NCBI RefSeq assembly: GCF_900156725.1
Contig: NZ_FTOI01000004.1
Coordinates: forward strand, 62,001-126,000
Length of the DNA: 64,000 bases
Origin: Kaistella chaponensis
GTDB lineage: Bacteria; Bacteroidota; Bacteroidia; Flavobacteriales; Weeksellaceae
Direction of reading: 5' to 3'
Shown piece by piece: positions 2,744-11,721 of this stretch. A program made the position numbers and the translations under genes. A model generated the notes under the pieces. It saw only the letters and a list, made by a program, of their open reading frames with translations, ran no database searches and was not told the DNA's origin. Positions within the stretch are counted from its first letter, which is position 1; each line of letters opens with the position of its first letter.

Positions 2744-4267
2744 TTATTTTCTTCTGCCCAAACCAAACATTCCCAATACAAATTTGGCGCCTTCTCTTGC
2801 CAATGTGGTAGTAAAAGTTCGTCCTGCTCTCGATTTCATTACGTTTTCGAAAATGCCGGGTTCTTCTTTTACAGGTTTTGGTTTTGCTGCGGGTTCCGCA
2901 TTTTGAACTGCTTGTTCCATTCTGTTGGTCAACATTTCATACGCTGAATCTTTGTTCATCGGCTGTTCGTATTTCTCAACCATTGCAGAACTGCTCGTTA
3001 AATCTTCAACTTCAGCGTCACTTAAAACATCCATTCTTGATTCTGGGGAAATTAAATAGGTGTGAACCAAAGGTGTTGGAATTCCTTTTTCATCCAAAGC
3101 TGTGAAAAAAGCTTCCCCAATCCCTAGATTTTGAATAAGCTCATTGGCTTTGTAATATTCGGTGGTTGGATAATTTTCTACGGCTTTCGAAATTTCTTTT
3201 CGGTCTTTTGCGGTAAATCCGCGCAACGCATGCTGAATTTTTAAACCCAACTGTGATAAGACATTTTCGGGTACATCACCAGGAATTTGTGTGATAAAAT
3301 ATATTCCTACTCCTTTTGAGCGAATTAGTTTTACCATGGTTTCAATTTGGTTTAATAAAGTTTTGCTTGCTTCATTAAAGATCAAATGCGCTTCATCAAT
3401 AAATAGAACCAATTTGGGTTTACCAGCATCTCCTTCTTCCGGAAAAGTCATATAAATCTCTGCAAATAGCGAAAGCATAAAGGTGGAAAACAATTGCGGT
3501 TTACTTTGAATGTTGGCAACTCTTAGAATATTTACTACGCCTTTTCCGTCTCTTTGTTTCAATAAATCGGTAACATCGAAACTAGGTTCCCCAAATAATT
3601 GTGCAGCTCCTTCTTGTTCAAGAGCAACAATCGAGCGGAGAATTGCTCCGAGAGAAGCAGGTGCGATTGAACCGTAATTGTTGGCCAAATCTGCCTTTCC
3701 TTGTGCATTATCGGTGACATACTGCAAAACTTTCTTCAAGTCATCCAAATCGATGAGCGGTAAACCTTTGTCATCACAATATTTAAAAACGATTGAAATA
3801 ATACTTTGCTGCGTATCATTTAAATCTAAAATTTTCGACAGTAAAATAGGACCAAATTCTGTAACGGTTGCTCTCAATTTCACCCCTTTTTCTCCGGAAA
3901 TCGACATCAATTCTACAGGAAAAGCCTGTGGTTCGTAGGGTAGTTTTGTTTTGGTATATCTTTCGGAAATGATCGCATTTTCTGCACCTGGTTTCGCAAT
4001 CCCAGAAAAATCTCCCTTGATATCGAGAACCAAAGAAGGAATTCCTTTGTGCGACAATTGCTCTGCGAAAACCTGCAGCGTTTTAGTTTTTCCTGTTCCG
4101 GTTGCTCCGGCTATTAATCCGTGTCGGTTAATGGTTTTCAGGGGAATGGTAACATCAACTTCTGTAACCACTTCGCCGTCAAGCATTGCTTTTCCTATGG
4201 TGATGAAGTCGCCTTTTGGGGTGTATTTTGTAGAAAGCTCCTGAATAAATTTCGTTTTATCTGCCAT
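2744..4267 (-). CDS. HerA-like ATPase, DUF853 family
   Basis: A 507-residue cytoplasmic P-loop ATPase of the HerA/FtsK superfamily, DUF853 branch (E. coli YjgR-like). The Walker A motif GATGTGKT is at residues 54-61 and the Walker B LVLFIDEAH ends with D291-E292; ITQIPGDVPENV downstream fits the sensor region. The C-terminal ~60 residues are Ala/Lys/Pro-rich and end in a hydrophobic-basic segment (FVLGMFGLGRRK). Biological role of the family is not well defined; DNA or protein translocation is the family-level expectation. It is 52 bases upstream of the exonuclease gene on the same strand, so co-transcription is plausible. Confidence 0.85.
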   Translation of the reverse strand: MADKTKFIQELSTKYTPKGDFITIGKAMLDGEVVTEVDVTIPLKTINRHGLIAGATGTGKTKTLQVFAEQLSHKGIPSLVLDIKGDFSGIAKPGAENAIISERYTKTKLPYEPQAFPVELMSISGEKGVKLRATVTEFGPILLSKILDLNDTQQSIISIVFKYCDDKGLPLIDLDDLKKVLQYVTDNAQGKADLANNYGSIAPASLGAILRSIVALEQEGAAQLFGEPSFDVTDLLKQRDGKGVVNILRVANIQSKPQLFSTFMLSLFAEIYMTFPEEGDAGKPKLVLFIDEAHLIFNEASKTLLNQIETMVKLIRSKGVGIYFITQIPGDVPENVLSQLGLKIQHALRGFTAKDRKEISKAVENYPTTEYYKANELIQNLGIGEAFFTALDEKGIPTPLVHTYLISPESRMDVLSDAEVEDLTSSSAMVEKYEQPMNKDSAYEMLTNRMEQAVQNAEPAAKPKPVKEEPGIFENVMKSRAGRTFTTTLAREGAKFVLGMFGLGRRK

Positions 4268-4346
4268 GGTGTAAATCGTTTAAGGCGTTAAAGATAAATA
4301 ATATTGCAGGATTATTAATTTTATGACCAAAATAATTTTAAAATTT

Positions 4347-4362
4347 AATGACGAAAGTCATT
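4347..4362. promoter_or_regulatory. Candidate Crp/Fnr-type box upstream of the copper trio
   Basis: AATGAC-GAAA-GTCATT is a perfect 6-4-6 inverted repeat whose core TGAC-N4-GTCA has the geometry of an FNR/CRP half-site pair. Its centre (4354.5) is 30.5 bp upstream of the first base of the -7 element, about -42 from the predicted transcription start, the usual place for an activator that replaces a weak -33. No TTG is present at the -33 position. Thirteen of 15 bases match the box upstream of ccoS. Confidence 0.55.
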
Positions 4363-4384
4363 TTCAATTCAGATAAATTAGTCT

Positions 4385-4392
4385 TAATTTTG
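4385..4392 (+). promoter_or_regulatory. -7 promoter element of the copper trio
   Basis: TAATTTTG matches TAnnTTTG. The ATG at 4402 follows 10 bases after it, so the transcript has almost no leader. No -33 TTG is visible at 17-23 bp, which suggests dependence on an activator. Confidence 0.5.
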
Positions 4393-4401
4393 AAAAATCA
4401 A

Positions 4402-4764
4402 ATGAAGGCCATTTTATCTATCATATTGTCCACGATTATTTTTACAGCAAGTTTCCAAAACTCGTTGTTTATGATTGATTATCAGATCAACCGCAAGTTT
4501 TATGAAATCCATTGTATCAACAAGTCGAAACCCGAAATGGATTGCCATGGAAAATGCCAAATGAAAAAGGAAAGCGAAAAAACTTCTAATCCTTTTAGTT
4601 TAGTAAAGTATTCTTTTGAATTTAATATTCTTCCTTCTGAGCCTGCAGCGTTTTCCCTGAAACCGCATGGTTCTTTAGATTTTGATTCTTCCGCTTATTC
4701 GTATTACGCTCAGAATATTTCTGAGGTTTTCTTGGATATTGTTCCGAATCCGCCCCAAATTTAA
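4402..4764 (+). CDS. Cys/Met-rich small exported protein of the copper trio
   Basis: A 120-residue protein starting at the ATG at 4402; the in-frame ATG at 4348 lies inside the upstream inverted repeat and ahead of the promoter element, so it is rejected. Residues 1-25 are a signal peptide or membrane anchor. A conserved-looking metal motif follows: H37-C38, then KPEMDCHGKCQMKK with M46, C48, H49, C52 and M54, a good soft-metal ligand set. The rest is low in recognisable features. Similar Cys-motif proteins occur next to Bacteroidota copper TonB receptors (from memory, not searched). With the following lipoprotein and receptor it probably forms one unit; a periplasmic or membrane copper-handling role is inferred. 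Confidence 0.7.
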   Translation: MKAILSIILSTIIFTASFQNSLFMIDYQINRKFYEIHCINKSKPEMDCHGKCQMKKESEKTSNPFSLVKYSFEFNILPSEPAAFSLKPHGSLDFDSSAYSYYAQNISEVFLDIVPNPPQI

Positions 4765-4877
4765 CTTGATTCTTCAGTGCAATTTCTTCTTTTTCTTCTT
4801 GAAATTGAAGCGATACCTTCATCTTTTATCCAAAGATTGAGGATTAATTTTCAAGTTAACATTTAAAATAAAAAACA

Positions 4878-5744
4878 ATGAAATTTTCATTCAAAATTCT
4901 ATTTGCCTTTTTGGCAATGGCTTTCGCAATCGTATCATGTAGAACTTCAGAGGGCGATGAACCAATATCACCCACTAATCCGAATACTGAAATTGAAGGG
5001 TTGACTAAAATTAAAGAAATCAGTAACGATACCCACATTATTGAATTGTATTCGAAATCGGGATCAACCAATTTGGGATACAATGATCTTAAATTGAGAT
5101 TGAAAAATAAATCGACCAATCAATATGAAAAAAATGCGACCATCGCTTGGACTCCGTTGATGCACATGACAATGATGACGCATTCTTGCCCGAAATCTGC
5201 GGTTGAGAAAGTAACATCAGATGGCTCTTTGTATTCTGGATATATCGTTTTCCAAATGCCTGGAAACGACACCGAATATTGGGATCTGAAAATAGATTAT
5301 ACCATCGGCGGAACCTCTTACACTGCAACTACTTTAATTAATGTTCCTGTTGAAAATAAAAAAACAGTCAATTCATTTTTGGGAAGCGATAATGTAAGAT
5401 ATGTGGTTGCGTACATCGAGCCGAAATCTCCGAAAGTTGCCATTAATGAGATGACTTTAGGGGTTTGGAAAATGCAGGATATGATGACATTTCCGGTTGT
5501 TGATGGTTACACCGTAAAAGTGGATCCAAGAATGCCGGGAATGGGCAATCACAGTTCACCCAATAATGTTCATGCAACACAAGCTGCGACGGGCAAACTA
5601 TACAATGGGAAACTTTCTTTAACCATGACTGGTTATTGGAAAATAAATCTTCAGCTGGCGAAAGCAGACGGAACTGTTTTAGGCGGCCAAGAAGTTACGG
5701 CAACCAATCTCGCAAGCAGTTTATTTTTCGAAATCGATTTCTAA
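4878..5744 (+). CDS. Met/His-rich copper-associated lipoprotein (FixH/YtkA-like repeats)
   Basis: A 288-residue lipoprotein: signal peptide and lipobox ending AIVSC21. Two Ig-like halves follow. The first carries M95-H96-M97, M99-M100, H102 and C104 around WTPLMHMTMMTHSCP; the second carries M219, M222, H225 and H232 around DPRMPGMGNHSSPNN. These clusters resemble the MxGMxH-type motif of YtkA/FixH-like domains and are good Cu(I)/Cu(II) ligands. It sits between the Cys-rich small protein and the TonB receptor with gaps of about 113 and 132 bases, so it is probably the surface or periplasmic copper-binding partner. Function inferred from motifs and context. Confidence 0.75.
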   Translation: MKFSFKILFAFLAMAFAIVSCRTSEGDEPISPTNPNTEIEGLTKIKEISNDTHIIELYSKSGSTNLGYNDLKLRLKNKSTNQYEKNATIAWTPLMHMTMMTHSCPKSAVEKVTSDGSLYSGYIVFQMPGNDTEYWDLKIDYTIGGTSYTATTLINVPVENKKTVNSFLGSDNVRYVVAYIEPKSPKVAINEMTLGVWKMQDMMTFPVVDGYTVKVDPRMPGMGNHSSPNNVHATQAATGKLYNGKLSLTMTGYWKINLQLAKADGTVLGGQEVTATNLASSLFFEIDF

Positions 5745-5876
5745 ATTTCGGTCCAATTCCTATTCAAAGCTCATTGAACGTTTATCCTTGATTGAGCTTT
5801 GATTTTCTCTCTTTTCAGTTGCAATTAATCTTTTATTGGAAGGTTAATGCAACCTCAACACCCAAAATTCTTTACA

Positions 5877-7868
5877 ATGAAACGAATGATCTTCATGAGT
5901 TTTCTTATCCTTCTGTTTTTTAATTTGAATGCGCAGGAAAGATTAAAAGATTCGATCACCGCTCAACATATTCAAGAAGTTATTGTCATCGGAACTACGA
6001 AAATTTCGAGCAAAGAAAATAAACCTTTAGGATCCATCGATGAATATTTGCAGAAATCATCGAAAGTCGATATGATCAAAAGAGGTGCATACGCTTGGGA
6101 ACCTCTCATCAACAGTATGCCGACAGAAAGAACTTTGGTCACCATCGACGGAATGCGAATTTTCGGAGCCTGTACCGACAAAATGGATCCTGTGACTTCT
6201 TATATCGAAGTTTCGAATCTCAAAGAAGCAACGATTGTTTCTGGTCAGGAAGGTTCCTGCCACGGAAATACCATTGGTGGAGCTCTGGATTTGAAGAGAA
6301 ACAAAATGATGTTCGGTCACACGAAATGGAATTTTAATGTCAACAGCGGTTTTGAAACGGTAAACAATCAAAAAATTTTTGGTGCCGGAACAAACTTTAA
6401 ATCAGAAAAATTCTACACCGATTTTAATTTTATGATGCGTGATGCCGACAATTATAAAGCAGGAAAAAATGTCGAAATCCCTTTTTCTCAATTTAAAAAA
6501 ATTAATGTTTCGGGAATTTCTGGGGTGAAGTTGGGCGAAAATAAACTTTTAGAAGCCGCAGTGATTTACGATAAAGCTACCGATGTAGGTTATCCTGCAT
6601 TACCAATGGATGTATCGATTGCAGAGGCATTGATCACCTCCTTGAAATTTCAAATTTTGTCCAAAAGCGATTTCTTTAAAAGCTGGGAAACCAAAGTTTA
6701 TTTCAACACCATTATGCACCGAATGGATGATACAAAAAGACCCAATGTTCCTATTCATATGGATATGCCGGGTTGGAGCAAAACTTTCGGATATTATTCT
6801 CACCTAAAAGCTGATTACAATCAACATCATTTTTTGCTTAATGTAAATGGTTTTTACAATAAATCTTCTGCAGAAATGACCATGTATCCTACCGATCGAA
6901 GTGAAAAATTAATGTTTATGCTCACTTGGCCCGATGTGAGAACGCTCAATCAGGGAGTTTACGTGGAAGATCAAATTAATTTTAATCAACATTCCAGTTT
7001 AAAATTATCTGTTTCAGCAGCGATACATCAAAATAAAATCGAAAGTGAGTTTGGTCTAAACAGTCTGCAGATTTTTTATCCAGAAATGAAGCCAGAAAAA
7101 TCCAGGGTTCTAAAAAGTTTTGCAGTGAATTATGAGTTTAATTCAAATGTATTTCAGGCAGGTTTCGGTTTAGGATATGGTGATCGAGCGCCATCTGTTT
7201 CTGAAGGTTACGGGTTTTATCTGTTTAATAGTTTCGAGAAATATGATTATATCGGAAATCCATATTTAAAAAATGAATCTTCTGTGGAAGCAAACGCTTT
7301 TTTGGGAATGAAACTAGAAAAGTTCAACGCGAAGGTTTCTTCCTCTTATTTTTACCTCTCCAATTATATTGTGGGGGAAATTTTAGAGAATCTTGTTCCA
7401 ATGACCATCGGTGCAAATGGAGTGAAAAATTATACCGCGCTAGATAATGCGACCATTTTCAACGTGAGTTTATCAACCGAATTGCAAATTGCTGAACTTT
7501 TGAAATGGTCTGCACAATTTGTTTACACCCGTGGAAAAGACAATCAGAATCAGAATCTTCCTTTTATGAGTCCTTTCAGTTATCAATCTTCATTAAAATT
7601 TGAAAAAAATAAATTTTCCAGTGAATTGGCGGTACATGGGAACGCCAAATATCAAGATTTTGCCGAAAAGTACGGCGAATCTGCAACTCCAGATTACCTT
7701 GAAATAAATGCGAGTTTAGGATATCTTTTCAAAATGAATAACAGTAAAATCCTCGCAAAAATAGGGGTAGAAAATATATTCGACCGGTTTTATACCACTT
7801 TTTCTGACTGGAATAAAATTCCAAGACCCGGTAGAAATTTCTTCTTGAATTTAAGTTTTAATTGGTGA
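5877..7868 (+). CDS. TonB-dependent outer-membrane copper receptor, OprC-like
   Basis: A 663-residue TonB-dependent receptor starting at the ATG at 5877, which gives a clean signal peptide (cleavage near NLNAQ20). The plug domain is at about 30-145, with RTLVTIDGMRIFGACTDKMD, and the beta-barrel follows, ending FFLNLSFNW with a terminal aromatic. It has both parts of the CxxxM-HxM copper site described for Pseudomonas OprC: C99-T-D-K-M103 in the plug and H281-R-M283 followed by D-D in the barrel (OprC family: HVMDN). This supports copper import across the outer membrane, powered by TonB-ExbBD encoded elsewhere. It is the third gene of the copper trio. Strong for receptor, good for copper. Confidence 0.88.
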   Translation: MKRMIFMSFLILLFFNLNAQERLKDSITAQHIQEVIVIGTTKISSKENKPLGSIDEYLQKSSKVDMIKRGAYAWEPLINSMPTERTLVTIDGMRIFGACTDKMDPVTSYIEVSNLKEATIVSGQEGSCHGNTIGGALDLKRNKMMFGHTKWNFNVNSGFETVNNQKIFGAGTNFKSEKFYTDFNFMMRDADNYKAGKNVEIPFSQFKKINVSGISGVKLGENKLLEAAVIYDKATDVGYPALPMDVSIAEALITSLKFQILSKSDFFKSWETKVYFNTIMHRMDDTKRPNVPIHMDMPGWSKTFGYYSHLKADYNQHHFLLNVNGFYNKSSAEMTMYPTDRSEKLMFMLTWPDVRTLNQGVYVEDQINFNQHSSLKLSVSAAIHQNKIESEFGLNSLQIFYPEMKPEKSRVLKSFAVNYEFNSNVFQAGFGLGYGDRAPSVSEGYGFYLFNSFEKYDYIGNPYLKNESSVEANAFLGMKLEKFNAKVSSSYFYLSNYIVGEILENLVPMTIGANGVKNYTALDNATIFNVSLSTELQIAELLKWSAQFVYTRGKDNQNQNLPFMSPFSYQSSLKFEKNKFSSELAVHGNAKYQDFAEKYGESATPDYLEINASLGYLFKMNNSKILAKIGVENIFDRFYTTFSDWNKIPRPGRNFFLNLSFNW

Positions 7869-7962: not shown

Positions 7963-8406
7963 ATGAACAGGAAAGATCTTATCGGCAGAATTATAAGAGA
8001 ACAGATGAAAGTTATCGAAAGTTTGCAGCAGTCTGTAGAGCACTATAAAGCAGCGTCAGAGATTGATGAAGAAAGCACCCACGATCCGGAGGATTTCTCC
8101 AATCAGTCTGTCGCAAAAGATATGCAGCTTCTGTTCGAAAAAATGATGGCTGAAGCGCAACAGATCCTTCGATTTTTAGAAAAGGAAAGAGAGGTTGTGC
8201 ACACAGAAATCGAGAAGGGATGTTTAATAGAAACCGATAAAAATTTTCTTTTTATTGGTCTTTCTGTGCCCGTTATTCAAGTGGATGATAAAGAACTTAT
8301 TTCCTTTTCAGAACAGGCGCCGGTTTTCCTCGAAATCAAAGGTAAAAATCTCGGCGATTCTCTAACAGTAGGAAATGATACTTTGAAAATTCTGACTTTC
8401 AGTTAA
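7963..8406 (+). CDS. GreA/GreB-like small protein
   Basis: A 147-residue soluble protein. The first ~85 residues are strongly helical and charged (coiled-coil, as in the Gre finger), and the last ~55 (FLFIGLSVPVIQVDDKELISFSEQAPVFLEIKG) look like a beta-rich C-terminal domain of the Gre type. Bacteroidota carry a group of ~150-residue proteins of this shape, sometimes miscalled 3-oxoacyl-ACP synthase. Binding to RNA polymerase is possible but not shown by any residue here. It is a single gene with its own -7 element. Confidence 0.45.
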   Translation: MNRKDLIGRIIREQMKVIESLQQSVEHYKAASEIDEESTHDPEDFSNQSVAKDMQLLFEKMMAEAQQILRFLEKEREVVHTEIEKGCLIETDKNFLFIGLSVPVIQVDDKELISFSEQAPVFLEIKGKNLGDSLTVGNDTLKILTFS

Positions 8407-9068: not shown

Positions 9069-10478
9069 ATGAAGATAGAACAAATATATACAGGATGTCT
9101 CGCGCAAGGAGCATATTACATTGTCTCCGAAAATGAGGCGGTAATTATTGATCCGCTTCGGGAAACGCAACCTTATTTGGCTCGGTTAGAAAAGGATCAG
9201 GTGAAACTTAAATATATTTTCGAAACGCACTTTCATGCAGATTTCGTCTCTGGACATGTCGATTTATCAAAGAAAACCGGCGCTGAAATCGTTTTCGGAC
9301 CTACAGCGAACCCCGAGTTTGAAGCGATTATTGCAAAAGACAATCAGATTTTCGACATTGGAAAAATTAAAATTAAAGTACTTCACACTCCTGGTCACAC
9401 CATGGAAAGTTCTACCTTTCTTTTAATTGATGAAGAGGGAAAAGAAACTGCCATTTTTTCTGGTGATACCTTATTTTTAGGCGATGTTGGAAGACCCGAT
9501 TTGGCGCAAAAATCAGCGCAAATGACACAGGAAGAATTGGCTGGTTTGCTCTACGAAAGTTTACAAAGTAAAATTATGCCACTTGCAGACGATATTATCG
9601 TTTACCCAGCTCATGGAGCCGGTTCTGCATGTGGGAAAAATATGCAGAAGGAAACAGTGGATTCGTTGGGAAATCAGAAAAAAACCAATTATGCATTGAA
9701 TCAACCAAATAAAGAATCATTTGCTCGTGAGGTTTTAGACGGACTTTTGCCTCCACCGAAATATTTCGGGATGAATGTAGCGATGAATAAAGGCGGAATT
9801 CCCAGTTTTGATGAGGTCATGAAACATGGAAACAAGCCTCTATCTCCAGACAATGTTGAAGAACTCGTCGAACACGCAGGAGCATTGATTTTAGATACAA
9901 GAAACGCTACAGATTTTCACAAAGGATTTATTCCAAATTCAATTAACATAGGTTTGAAAGGTGATTTCGCACCTTGGGTCGGAGCGATGATTGTTGATGT
10001 AAAGCAACCGATCGTGTTGGTTGCAGATTTGGGAACTGAAGAAGAAGTGATCACAAGACTTTCCCGCGTTGGGTTTGATGAGGTTTTGGGATTTTTGGAA
10101 GGAGGTTTTGATTCCTGGAAAAATTCCGAAAAAGAAATAGATACCGTAAACAGAATCTCACCAGAAGAATTTCAAAAACAGTACAACGAAAATTCAATCG
10201 TATTTGATGTAAGAAAGGAAAGTGAGTACGAAGCTGAACATGTAAATGAGGCATTTGAAAGACCATTATCGAATATTAATGAATGGGCAAACTTGATCGA
10301 TAAAAACGAACATTTCTTCTTGCATTGTGCAGGAGGATATAGAAGCATGATTGCAGCGAGCATTTTAAATTCCCGTGGAATCAGAAATTTTAGTGAAATT
10401 GAAGGTGGATTCAATAAAATTAAAGAAACAACTGTTCCGAAAAGCACTTTCATGTGCCAAAGTAAAATTTTAAAATAA
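9069..10478 (+). CDS. Metallo-beta-lactamase/double-rhodanese protein, persulfide dioxygenase-like
   Basis: A 469-residue fusion. Residues 1-235 are a glyoxalase II/ETHE1-type metallo-beta-lactamase domain: THFHADFVSGH gives H54, H56, D58 and H63, followed by H110 (TPGHT), D133 (SGDTLF) and H182 (YPAHG). Rhodanese domain 1 (about 265-350) has VLVADLG where the catalytic Cys should be and is inactive; domain 2 (about 365-450) keeps it as C420 in HCAGGYRS. Related enzymes oxidise glutathione or protein persulfides to sulfite (family knowledge). Its TAA overlaps the next ATG by one base, starting a five-gene run of sulfur-carrier proteins. Substrate is unknown; Bacteroidota often lack glutathione, so a different thiol is possible. 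Confidence 0.88.
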   Translation: MKIEQIYTGCLAQGAYYIVSENEAVIIDPLRETQPYLARLEKDQVKLKYIFETHFHADFVSGHVDLSKKTGAEIVFGPTANPEFEAIIAKDNQIFDIGKIKIKVLHTPGHTMESSTFLLIDEEGKETAIFSGDTLFLGDVGRPDLAQKSAQMTQEELAGLLYESLQSKIMPLADDIIVYPAHGAGSACGKNMQKETVDSLGNQKKTNYALNQPNKESFAREVLDGLLPPPKYFGMNVAMNKGGIPSFDEVMKHGNKPLSPDNVEELVEHAGALILDTRNATDFHKGFIPNSINIGLKGDFAPWVGAMIVDVKQPIVLVADLGTEEEVITRLSRVGFDEVLGFLEGGFDSWKNSEKEIDTVNRISPEEFQKQYNENSIVFDVRKESEYEAEHVNEAFERPLSNINEWANLIDKNEHFFLHCAGGYRSMIAASILNSRGIRNFSEIEGGFNKIKETTVPKSTFMCQSKILK

Positions 10479-10849
10479 TGAAATTTAATATTTTTTTATA
10501 TCTAGGAGTTCTTGCTGCAGTATTTTTTTCATGTGCCACAAAATCTCATGCAGAAACGATTAATCCGGCCAATTTCAAAGAAATCGTAAAAAATCCGATT
10601 ACGACTTTAGTAGATGTACGAATCCCAGAAGAATTCAGTGAAAAGACTGCAAAAGGCGCAGTCAATATTCCTTTGGCTAAAATTGAAGATAATATCAGTT
10701 TTTTCAAAAACCAAAAAACCACAGTTCTTTTCTGTAACCGCGGCATTCAGGCTGAACAAGCCGTAGAAATTCTAAGAAAAAATGGGGTTGAAAATGTCTA
10801 TTTTGGTAAATCTTTAGATAATGTTGAAGCCATACAAAACGAAAAATAA
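10478..10849 (+). CDS. Rhodanese-like lipoprotein
   Basis: A 123-residue single-domain rhodanese. A lipobox at FFSC19 predicts anchoring in the cell envelope after export. The active-site loop is FCNRGIQA with catalytic C86, and the CH2A-like DVRIPEEF is present. It would accept or pass sulfane sulfur on the periplasmic side, while the next rhodanese is cytoplasmic. Translation is probably coupled to the previous gene through a TAATG overlap. Rhodanese fold is clear; the donor and acceptor are not known. Confidence 0.85.
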   Translation: MKFNIFLYLGVLAAVFFSCATKSHAETINPANFKEIVKNPITTLVDVRIPEEFSEKTAKGAVNIPLAKIEDNISFFKNQKTTVLFCNRGIQAEQAVEILRKNGVENVYFGKSLDNVEAIQNEK

Positions 10850-10857
10850 AATAGAAG

Positions 10858-11169
10858 ATGTTTGATTTTATTAAAAATATTTTTGCCAAAAATTCAGTTG
10901 ATTATAAAGAACTGATGAAAAACGGCGCGCAAATTATCGATGTTCGAACCCCGAGTGAATTCAGCAACGGAAACATTAGAAATTCTAAAAATATCCCTTT
11001 GCAACATCTTGCAGCTGAGATGAAAAAATTAGATTTGAAAAAACCGATTATTACTTGTTGTGCAAGCGGAATGAGAAGTGCTTCGGCAAAATCGTTGCTC
11101 CAACAAAATGGTTTCGAAGCTTACAATGGAGGTGGTTGGAGCAGCCTTGAAAATAAATTAAACAAATGA
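10858..11169 (+). CDS. Cytoplasmic rhodanese
   Basis: A 103-residue rhodanese domain with no signal peptide. It shows DVRTPSEFSNGNI and the active loop CASGMRSA with C68 (preceded by C67). Similar short rhodaneses (PspE/GlpE size) move sulfane sulfur between thiols. The stop overlaps the next start by four bases (ATGA), which implies a single operon with the membrane protein that follows. Confidence 0.88.
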   Translation: MFDFIKNIFAKNSVDYKELMKNGAQIIDVRTPSEFSNGNIRNSKNIPLQHLAAEMKKLDLKKPIITCCASGMRSASAKSLLQQNGFEAYNGGGWSSLENKLNK

Positions 11170-11375
11170 AAGCCTTGCTGAAAAATTGGGACTTAAGAAG
11201 AGCGCTTTACTTCATGGGTGGCCTTTTCTTTGTATTGATTGCGCTTAATGATCGGTCTTGGTGGATGATTCCGTTTGGACTTTATTTTATTGCGATGGCT
11301 CTTTTTAGATTTGGATGTGCTGCCGGAAATTGCAATGTTCCCTTTTCAGAAGAGGATTCGGAAGTTAAAAACTAA
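11166..11375 (+). CDS. DUF2892-like membrane protein
   Basis: A 69-residue protein with two predicted membrane helices (about residues 12-30 and 33-52) and two cysteines (FGCAAGNCNVPF) just after the second. Bacterial DUF2892/YgaP-type segments are often fused or adjacent to rhodaneses, which fits the two rhodanese genes immediately upstream. The Cys pair could take part in sulfur or thiol transfer at the membrane; that is inference. Confidence 0.7.
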   Translation: MKALLKNWDLRRALYFMGGLFFVLIALNDRSWWMIPFGLYFIAMALFRFGCAAGNCNVPFSEEDSEVKN

Positions 11376-11380
11376 ATCTT

Positions 11381-11388
11381 TAGTTTTG
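11381..11388 (+). promoter_or_regulatory. -7 element before the thioredoxin gene
   Basis: TAGTTTTG matches TAnnTTTG and lies 27 bases before the ATG at 11416. It may allow thioredoxin expression separate from the sulfur operon. No -33 TTG is seen. Confidence 0.35.
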
Positions 11389-11415
11389 TAATGTTTAATC
11401 TCTTATTTTTTAATT

Positions 11416-11721
11416 ATGTCTCAAAAATTTCAAGAATTAATTAATTCAGAAAGGCCAGTTTTAATCGATTTTTTTGCCACTTGGTGCGGTCCGTGCAAAG
11501 TGCAGTCTTCTGTTTTGAATACCGTAAAAGAAAATATTGGCGACTTGGCAAGAATCATCAAAATTGATGTAGATCAGTATCCAGCGATTGCTGCAGAATA
11601 CGGAGTTCGCGGGGTTCCGACTTTAGCAGTATTTAAAAACAGTCAGTTACTTTGGAAAGAAAGTGGTGTACATGATGTGAATACTTTAACGAATCTGTTA
11701 CAAGATTTTTCTAAAACTTAA
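11416..11721 (+). CDS. trxA: Thioredoxin
   Basis: A 101-residue cytoplasmic thioredoxin with the classic WCGPCK site (C24, C27) and the cis-proline loop RGVPTL. It reduces disulfides and, in this context, probably reduces persulfides released by the upstream rhodaneses. It lies 40 bases after the DUF2892 gene with a possible -7 element of its own, so it may belong to the sulfur operon or be only partly linked. The gene symbol is given by family; paralogues are common, so it may not be the main thioredoxin. Confidence 0.88.
   Translation: MSQKFQELINSERPVLIDFFATWCGPCKVQSSVLNTVKENIGDLARIIKIDVDQYPAIAAEYGVRGVPTLAVFKNSQLLWKESGVHDVNTLTNLLQDFSKT

Follow-up and report, generated by a model that had tools for sequence, protein, structure and literature searches.

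A probable copper-acquisition operon with a putative leader peptide in Kaistella chaponensis and its possible link to nitrous oxide reductase

Copper uptake by Gram-negative bacteria is poorly known and in Bacteroidota it has hardly been studied. In a stretch of 64,000 nucleotides (nt) from Kaistella chaponensis (assembly GCF_900156725.1, contig NZ_FTOI01000004.1, positions 62,001 to 126,000 of the forward strand; hereafter the window; genome size 3.04 Mb) three open reading frames (ORFs) running in one direction encode a small Cys-rich protein, a Met/His-rich lipoprotein and a TonB-dependent receptor similar to OprC of Pseudomonas aeruginosa. We consider it fairly likely that this trio constitutes a copper-acquisition operon, in which the small protein serves as leader switch, the lipoprotein and the receptor take up copper, and expression is controlled together with the nos genes for nitrous oxide (N2O) reductase. 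The gene before the trio, 4267 down to 2744, points away from it and the gene after it starts at 7963. An earlier reading of the letters without database searches (the sequence-only reading) had pointed out the three ORFs at 4402-7868 and their ligand clusters CHGKCQM, MHMTMMTHSC and MPGMGNH, which are all present and conserved in relatives; a C-terminal Pro-Pro of the leader, an RNA pairing between leader stop and lipoprotein start, and an upstream operator go beyond that reading. The features of the locus are the following.

4349-4360, plus strand: CRP/FNR-type palindromic operator TGACGAAAGTCA (TGAY-N4-RTCA)
4385-4392, plus strand: Bacteroidota -7 promoter box TAATTTTG (TAnnTTTG), 24 nt after the operator
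4402-4764, plus strand: small Cys-rich ORF, 120 residues, putative leader, assigned from family search, invariant residues of alignment A10 and gene contexts
4513-4515 and 4543-4557, plus strand: leader Cys codons, C38 and CHGKC
4750-4755, plus strand: codons of the invariant Pro117-Pro118, putative arrest site
4761-4769, plus strand: 5' arm of the stem, TTAACTTGA, spanning the leader stop codon
4851-4859, plus strand: 3' arm of the stem, TCAAGTTAA, 18 nt upstream of the lipoprotein start codon
4878-5744, plus strand: lipoprotein ORF, 288 residues, lipobox Cys21
5160-5189 and 5532-5567, plus strand: Met/His clusters of the lipoprotein, one per immunoglobulin-like (Ig-like) domain
5877-7868, plus strand: OprC-like TonB-dependent receptor ORF, 663 residues, assigned from TIGR01778, OprC in the PDB and site conservation
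6171-6173, 6183-6185, 6717-6719 and 6723-6725, plus strand: receptor copper-site codons C99, M103, H281 and M283, from the alignment to OprC
Receptor residues 294-300: additional HMDMPGW motif

The trio is a real unit, since leader, lipoprotein and receptor follow each other in this order at 79 of 81 loci, that is 80 named genome loci and the window. The remaining two loci are cut by a contig end, so that all 79 evaluable loci hold the full ordered trio. As the named loci were retrieved via the lipoprotein, this count is one of leader and receptor given the lipoprotein. Counted from the other side, a close receptor is found in 22 of 100 genomes of the family, and in all 22 the lipoprotein is present, adjacent or nearly so. 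Co-conservation across genomes was what the sequence-only reading had staked its grouping on, and the neighbourhood comparison found it. The nearest named relative at the locus is Kaistella gelatinilytica, with a lipoprotein identity of 84%.

A phmmer search of the receptor against the PDB returned OprC entries as sole matches (6fok, E 3.8e-14). The segments GACTDKMD and HRMDD align to the copper site of OprC, with C99, M103, H281 and M283 falling on C143, M147, H323 and M325 (numbering from PMC8610252), the CxxxM element being located in the plug and the HxM element in the barrel wall. Both elements had been recognised beforehand, and with the start codon at 5877 their positions are exactly those then given. 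C99 and M103 are kept throughout the receptor subfamily (35-member alignment A7), H281 and M283 likewise, and M295, M297, M334, M336 and M346 are conserved in addition; these extra invariant Met residues may make up a Met track comparable to the one in OprC. Among the NCBIfam models TIGR01778 (TonB copper receptor) scores best (117.5 bits, E 7e-34), and because the curated cut-off is 472 bits the receptor is, judged by this score, OprC-like yet no member of TIGR01778. Homology and the conserved site suggest that copper is its substrate. Compared to OprC and its Pseudomonas stutzeri ortholog NosA, with which it shares the type of receptor and copper site, the window receptor belongs to a distant subfamily, carries the extra conserved Met motifs HMDMPGW and MTM, and is always paired with a lipoprotein, a partnership undescribed for OprC. 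Receptors linked to the leader family described below fall into two subtypes with CxxxM and HxM in nearly all members of both: the window subtype (GACTDKMDP/HxMDD with HMDMPGW) and a subtype nearer to OprC (ACPNRMDP/DHLM). Exceptions are two leader-linked TonB receptors, L165:3529-5841 and L170:1901-4273, which have lost the plug Cys (GGPARMD) and retained the HxM.

For the lipoprotein, AlphaFold2 yields a model of two beta-sandwich domains with a mean predicted local distance difference test (pLDDT) score of 90.7. Across 26 diverse members residues M219, M222, H225 and M250 never vary, the second-domain motif MPxMGNHxSPNN that includes M250 is nearly invariant as a whole and the first Met/His cluster is replaced in some; among 54 closer members M95, M97 and H102 are invariant. 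The second domain, corresponding to the C-terminal half, resembles YtkA (PF13115, 25.3 bits, E 2.5e-5), narrowly missing the gathering cut-off of 25.9. A fold search yielded nothing more specific than Ig-like sandwiches (best Z 8.4, first domain), and copper proteins were absent from its rows, which is uninformative by itself. The lipobox Cys21 is followed by acidic residues (mean 2.5 Asp or Glu at +2 to +9 over 78 loci), as in the surface-export signal of Flavobacterium and Bacteroides lipoproteins (PMC5080379), and by this analogy the lipoprotein is probably surface-exposed. This signal and the adjoining TonB receptor gene are also found with the SusCD-like and vitamin B12 pairs of surface lipoprotein and receptor, from which the window pair would differ in handling a metal instead of a glycan or corrinoid, and differs in the Ig-like/YtkA-like fold of its lipoprotein, which is not that of SusD.

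What is the role of the small Cys-rich protein? The sequence-only reading had seen in all three proteins a copper capture-and-import chain. Import by lipoprotein and receptor stands on homology, conserved site and co-conservation, whereas the small protein was probably misread as a link of this chain. No convincing Pfam or NCBIfam model matches it, and its family is present in 93 of 296 Bacteroidota genomes and 54 of 139 genera. In 79 aligned members (24% mean column identity) only C38, C48, G50, C52, P117 and P118 are invariant, the stretch that separates the Cys cluster from the C-terminal Pro-Pro is variable, and inspection of the alignment reveals a hydrophobic N-terminus. All 106 members from 100 regions end in a Pro-Pro 3-10 residues before the stop, preceded mostly by His, Arg or Pro, at a spacing of 66-78 residues from the CxGxC. 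When the profile was rebuilt from the N-terminal half alone, so that Pro-Pro could not be selected for, a Pro-Pro lay within 12 residues of the stop in 106/106 leaders as compared to 3.3% of 973 other ORFs. Furthermore, the family also heads operons that lack the lipoprotein. The first genes behind the leaders (99 scanned) include 37 encoding a TonB plug, 31 MbnP, 8 YtkA and 5 SCO1, and the second genes (58) include 18 MbnH/MauG-family di-haem peroxidases and 7 PepSY_TM proteins. The next gene follows at a distance that varies between some tens and some hundreds of nt (median 116; 113 in the window). Because conservation is limited to the Cys, Gly and Pro-Pro residues and many unrelated copper operons are headed by the family, its features fit a cis-acting leader peptide of the CruR/CutF kind, outside DUF2946, that would very probably sense copper. 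An upstream ATG at 4348 was rejected as start, as it is not conserved and relatives start at the position of 4402.

Several regions show further variants of the leader arrangement. L105, L109, L138, L153 and L177 each contain a pair of ORFs from the leader family, before successive operons or in tandem (L138). In L115, L140, L163 and L175 leaders precede exported proteins of about 300 residues with a Cys-rich start (ACDVCGCS or ACDSCGG) after the signal peptide, and in L171, L172, L179, L184 and L185 leaders ending in SPPP are followed by exported proteins of about 340 residues that start with QWSxxRPD, behind which lie two smaller same-strand genes.

CruR of Bordetella pertussis likewise heads an operon with a copper TonB receptor and has a hydrophobic stretch at the N-terminus, a Cys motif, a C-terminal Pro-Pro a few residues before the stop at a near-fixed distance from the Cys residues, a long gap to the next gene and, there in Proteobacteria, the same gene repertoire behind it (PMC9426467). 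CruR arrests with its two Pro codons in the P and A sites (PMC12992588). The leader family differs from it by CxGxC and an upstream Cys instead of CxxC, by [H/R/P]PP instead of RAPP at the end, and by about 71 instead of 45 residues between Cys and Pro-Pro; the combination of CxxC and C-terminal RAPP typical of CruR/DUF2946 was not found in the family. DUF2946 (PF11162) matched neither the window leader at E 10, nor the 79 family members at E 0.1, nor anything in the genome. CutF of Rhodobacter capsulatus, a short exported protein with a CxxxC motif and a Pro-rich C-terminal end, shares with CruR and the leader family the hydrophobic N-terminal segment, the Cys motif and the C-terminal Pro-Pro, and in CutF a stem-loop between leader and next gene masks the start of the latter, as the stem in the window would. 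CutF raises the expression of a copper oxidase at high copper; since the target in the window is an importer, the opposite polarity would be expected. A survey of CutF-like proteins (fewer than 150 residues, Pro-Pro at most 15 residues from the C-terminus, a next gene that is no more than 1,000 nt away and on the same strand) reported such proteins in Bacteroidota (PMC9973294) and may include the leader family, of which the window member, with 120 residues, Pro-Pro at 117-118 and a gap of 113 nt, lies within these bounds. We found no experimentally tested Bacteroidota member in the literature.

The leader-lipoprotein intergenic region is more strongly folded than shuffled sequences (z -1.8 in the window, mean z -3.06 over 72 loci). 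In the window the two arms that span the leader stop and precede the lipoprotein start pair with each other, a feature that is not part of the CruR likeness, and in relatives these two places are taken by different paired sequences, such as TAAATTTTTGAT with ATCAAAAATTTA, TTTAGGTTTTT with AAAAACCTAAA and AATATAACAT with ATGTTATATT. A Watson-Crick helix of at least 9 pairs is formed by 18 of 57 own arm pairs as compared to 4.3% of arms swapped between loci; the pairing value of the own arms was not attained once in 50,000 permutations. By the geometry of CruR, a ribosome arrested at 4750-4755 would extend to about 4765, over the first letters of the 5' arm. Intrinsic terminators at the locus were not above shuffles, and no Rfam RNA, riboswitches included, reached its gathering score in 4200-6000.

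Upstream of the leader, TGAY-N4-RTCA occurs at 65 of 75 loci (as against 1.5% after mononucleotide shuffling) and TAnnTTTG at 53 of 62 (5% in shuffled sequence), and at 59 of the 65 operator-bearing loci the operator precedes the box by 22-25 nt. A sigma-70 promoter, also considered, was not above shuffles, and its place in the analysis was taken by the Bacteroidota-type box. The exact composite with 24 nt spacing (TGAY-N4-RTCA-N24-TAnnTTTG) has 4 sites in the genome and 0 in the reversed control, and 9 genome sites are found when 22-25 nt are allowed, among them a divergent pair in front of a CRP/FNR gene adjacent to the nos genes. One of the 4 sites precedes a cytochrome c gene, nosZ (TIGR04246, 919 bits) and the genes for NosL and NosD; the genes examined behind other composite sites of the genome (C11, C14, C28) have no evident copper link. 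In relatives the composite lies 460-645 nt upstream of 30 of 30 nosZ genes, with none in shuffles, and operator and spacing of the leader are the same as at these nosZ promoters. Moreover, nosZ is present in 16 of 22 genomes with the trio and 22 of 78 without it (Fisher p 3e-4, uncorrected for kinship).

NosA of P. stutzeri is expressed anaerobically, repressed by copper and reported necessary for the copper-containing N2O reductase (PMC8610252); a contrary report for another strain is cited in the same paper. Because the same composite stands before nosZ in 30/30 relatives, the operon probably corresponds, in Bacteroidota, to this NosA/OprC copper supply for N2O reductase, and the properties of NosA would agree with the window operon in function and control. 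About 9 kb from nosZ (G000:C16) lies this CRP/FNR-family gene with its two divergent TGAY-N4-RTCA operators (L314:4309-4905), followed by a gene for a 404-residue membrane protein without Pfam match. This regulator is a candidate activator of the nos genes and the window operon. In a congener (G026:C1:837509-843082; L092, L282) a leader and an OprC-type receptor lie directly beside nosZ in divergent orientation.

How could such an operon work? A CRP/FNR-family activator would switch on both it and the nos genes. Under copper shortage the ribosome would arrest at the C-terminal Pro-Pro of the leader and cover the stop-codon arm of the stem, leaving the lipoprotein translation start free. Copper bound by the nascent chain through CxGKC and C38 would relieve the arrest, the stem would form and the operon would be shut down. 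The Met/His clusters of the lipoprotein could hold copper and hand it to the OprC-like receptor, which would import it by means of TonB, mainly for N2O reductase and in addition for other cuproenzymes.

Alternatively, the small Cys-rich protein could be a periplasmic metal-binding protein that hands copper to lipoprotein and receptor, as its hydrophobic N-terminus, its three invariant Cys residues with the CHGKCQM cluster and its co-conservation with the other two genes would allow. We regard this as quite improbable in view of a variable middle part combined with an invariant Pro-Pro 66-78 residues beyond the Cys cluster, of operons headed without the lipoprotein, and of the long downstream gap. 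A leader acting through Rho-dependent transcription termination, with the intergenic stem being incidental, would follow CruR, the best-studied leader before a TonB receptor gene (PMC9426467), and would suit the many loci where strong stop/start pairing is missing; this seems unlikely to us, as the intergenic structure exceeds shuffles and own arms match better than swapped ones. As to the substrate, CrtA of B. pertussis imports chelated copper (PMC12914433) and the receptor stays far below the TIGR01778 cut-off, which would be compatible with uptake of a copper chelate or another metal instead of ionic copper. Considering that all four OprC copper ligands and the further five Met residues are kept, and that copper gene types follow the same leader family elsewhere, we think this very unlikely.

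The most serious competitor, doubtful as it appears to us, is a general copper supply, for example to heme-copper oxidases, the link to N2O reductase being merely shared low-oxygen control. CrtA serves heme-copper oxidases (PMC12914433), OprC is also found in non-denitrifiers (PMC8610252) and 6 of the 22 trio genomes lack nosZ. Against this stand the identical composite before all 30 nosZ genes of relatives and the mere nine composite sites genome-wide. For the copper-acquisition operon with leader switch and nos co-control several points have to be set on the other side of the balance. Trio and nosZ occur apart in both directions, being separated in those 6 genomes and in the 22 of 78 that have nosZ alone, and NosZ is thus not the sole client. 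The composite precedes just 10 of 106 leaders phylum-wide and is mostly confined to the trio lineage, so we infer that the copper leader is a wider, modular element and the CRP/FNR link mainly a property of that lineage. Roughly half of the Weeksellaceae loci show strong stop/start pairing, and in many Flavobacterium loci, which have longer gaps, the pairing is weak. Genomes and loci are related and not independent, making the p values optimistic, and the AlphaFold2 model of the receptor was unusable for checking the copper site (plug pLDDT < 50). Copper binding, arrest and regulation are steps that we infer.

The locus had been taken for a system not yet described. Its components are of known kinds, with OprC/NosA receptors and CruR/CutF leaders on record and an OprC-like receptor reported for the flavobacterium Bizionia argentinensis (PMC11213822); the combination, the features of the leader family and the nos link are apparently undescribed, as far as we found. 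A 2025 survey of RAPP/RGPP arrest peptides lists copper-related ones in many lineages and none in Bacteroidota (PMC12992588), a gap that the leader family with its [H/R/P]PP ends could fill. That Bacteroidota possess a copper-sensing arrest-peptide family of their own, unrelated to DUF2946 and working through a stop-to-start stem, and that a flavobacterial CRP/FNR regulator matches copper uptake to N2O reductase synthesis, is a tentative proposal to which we give slightly less than even chances. If the nos link is true, copper supply and N2O reduction would be wired together in flavobacteria with Sec-dependent NosZ, N2O being a greenhouse gas and its reductase a copper enzyme that breaks it down.

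Elsewhere in the window, at 9069-11721, inspection of the translations revealed a cluster of a metallo-beta-lactamase/rhodanese-like fusion, two more rhodanese-like proteins and a thioredoxin.

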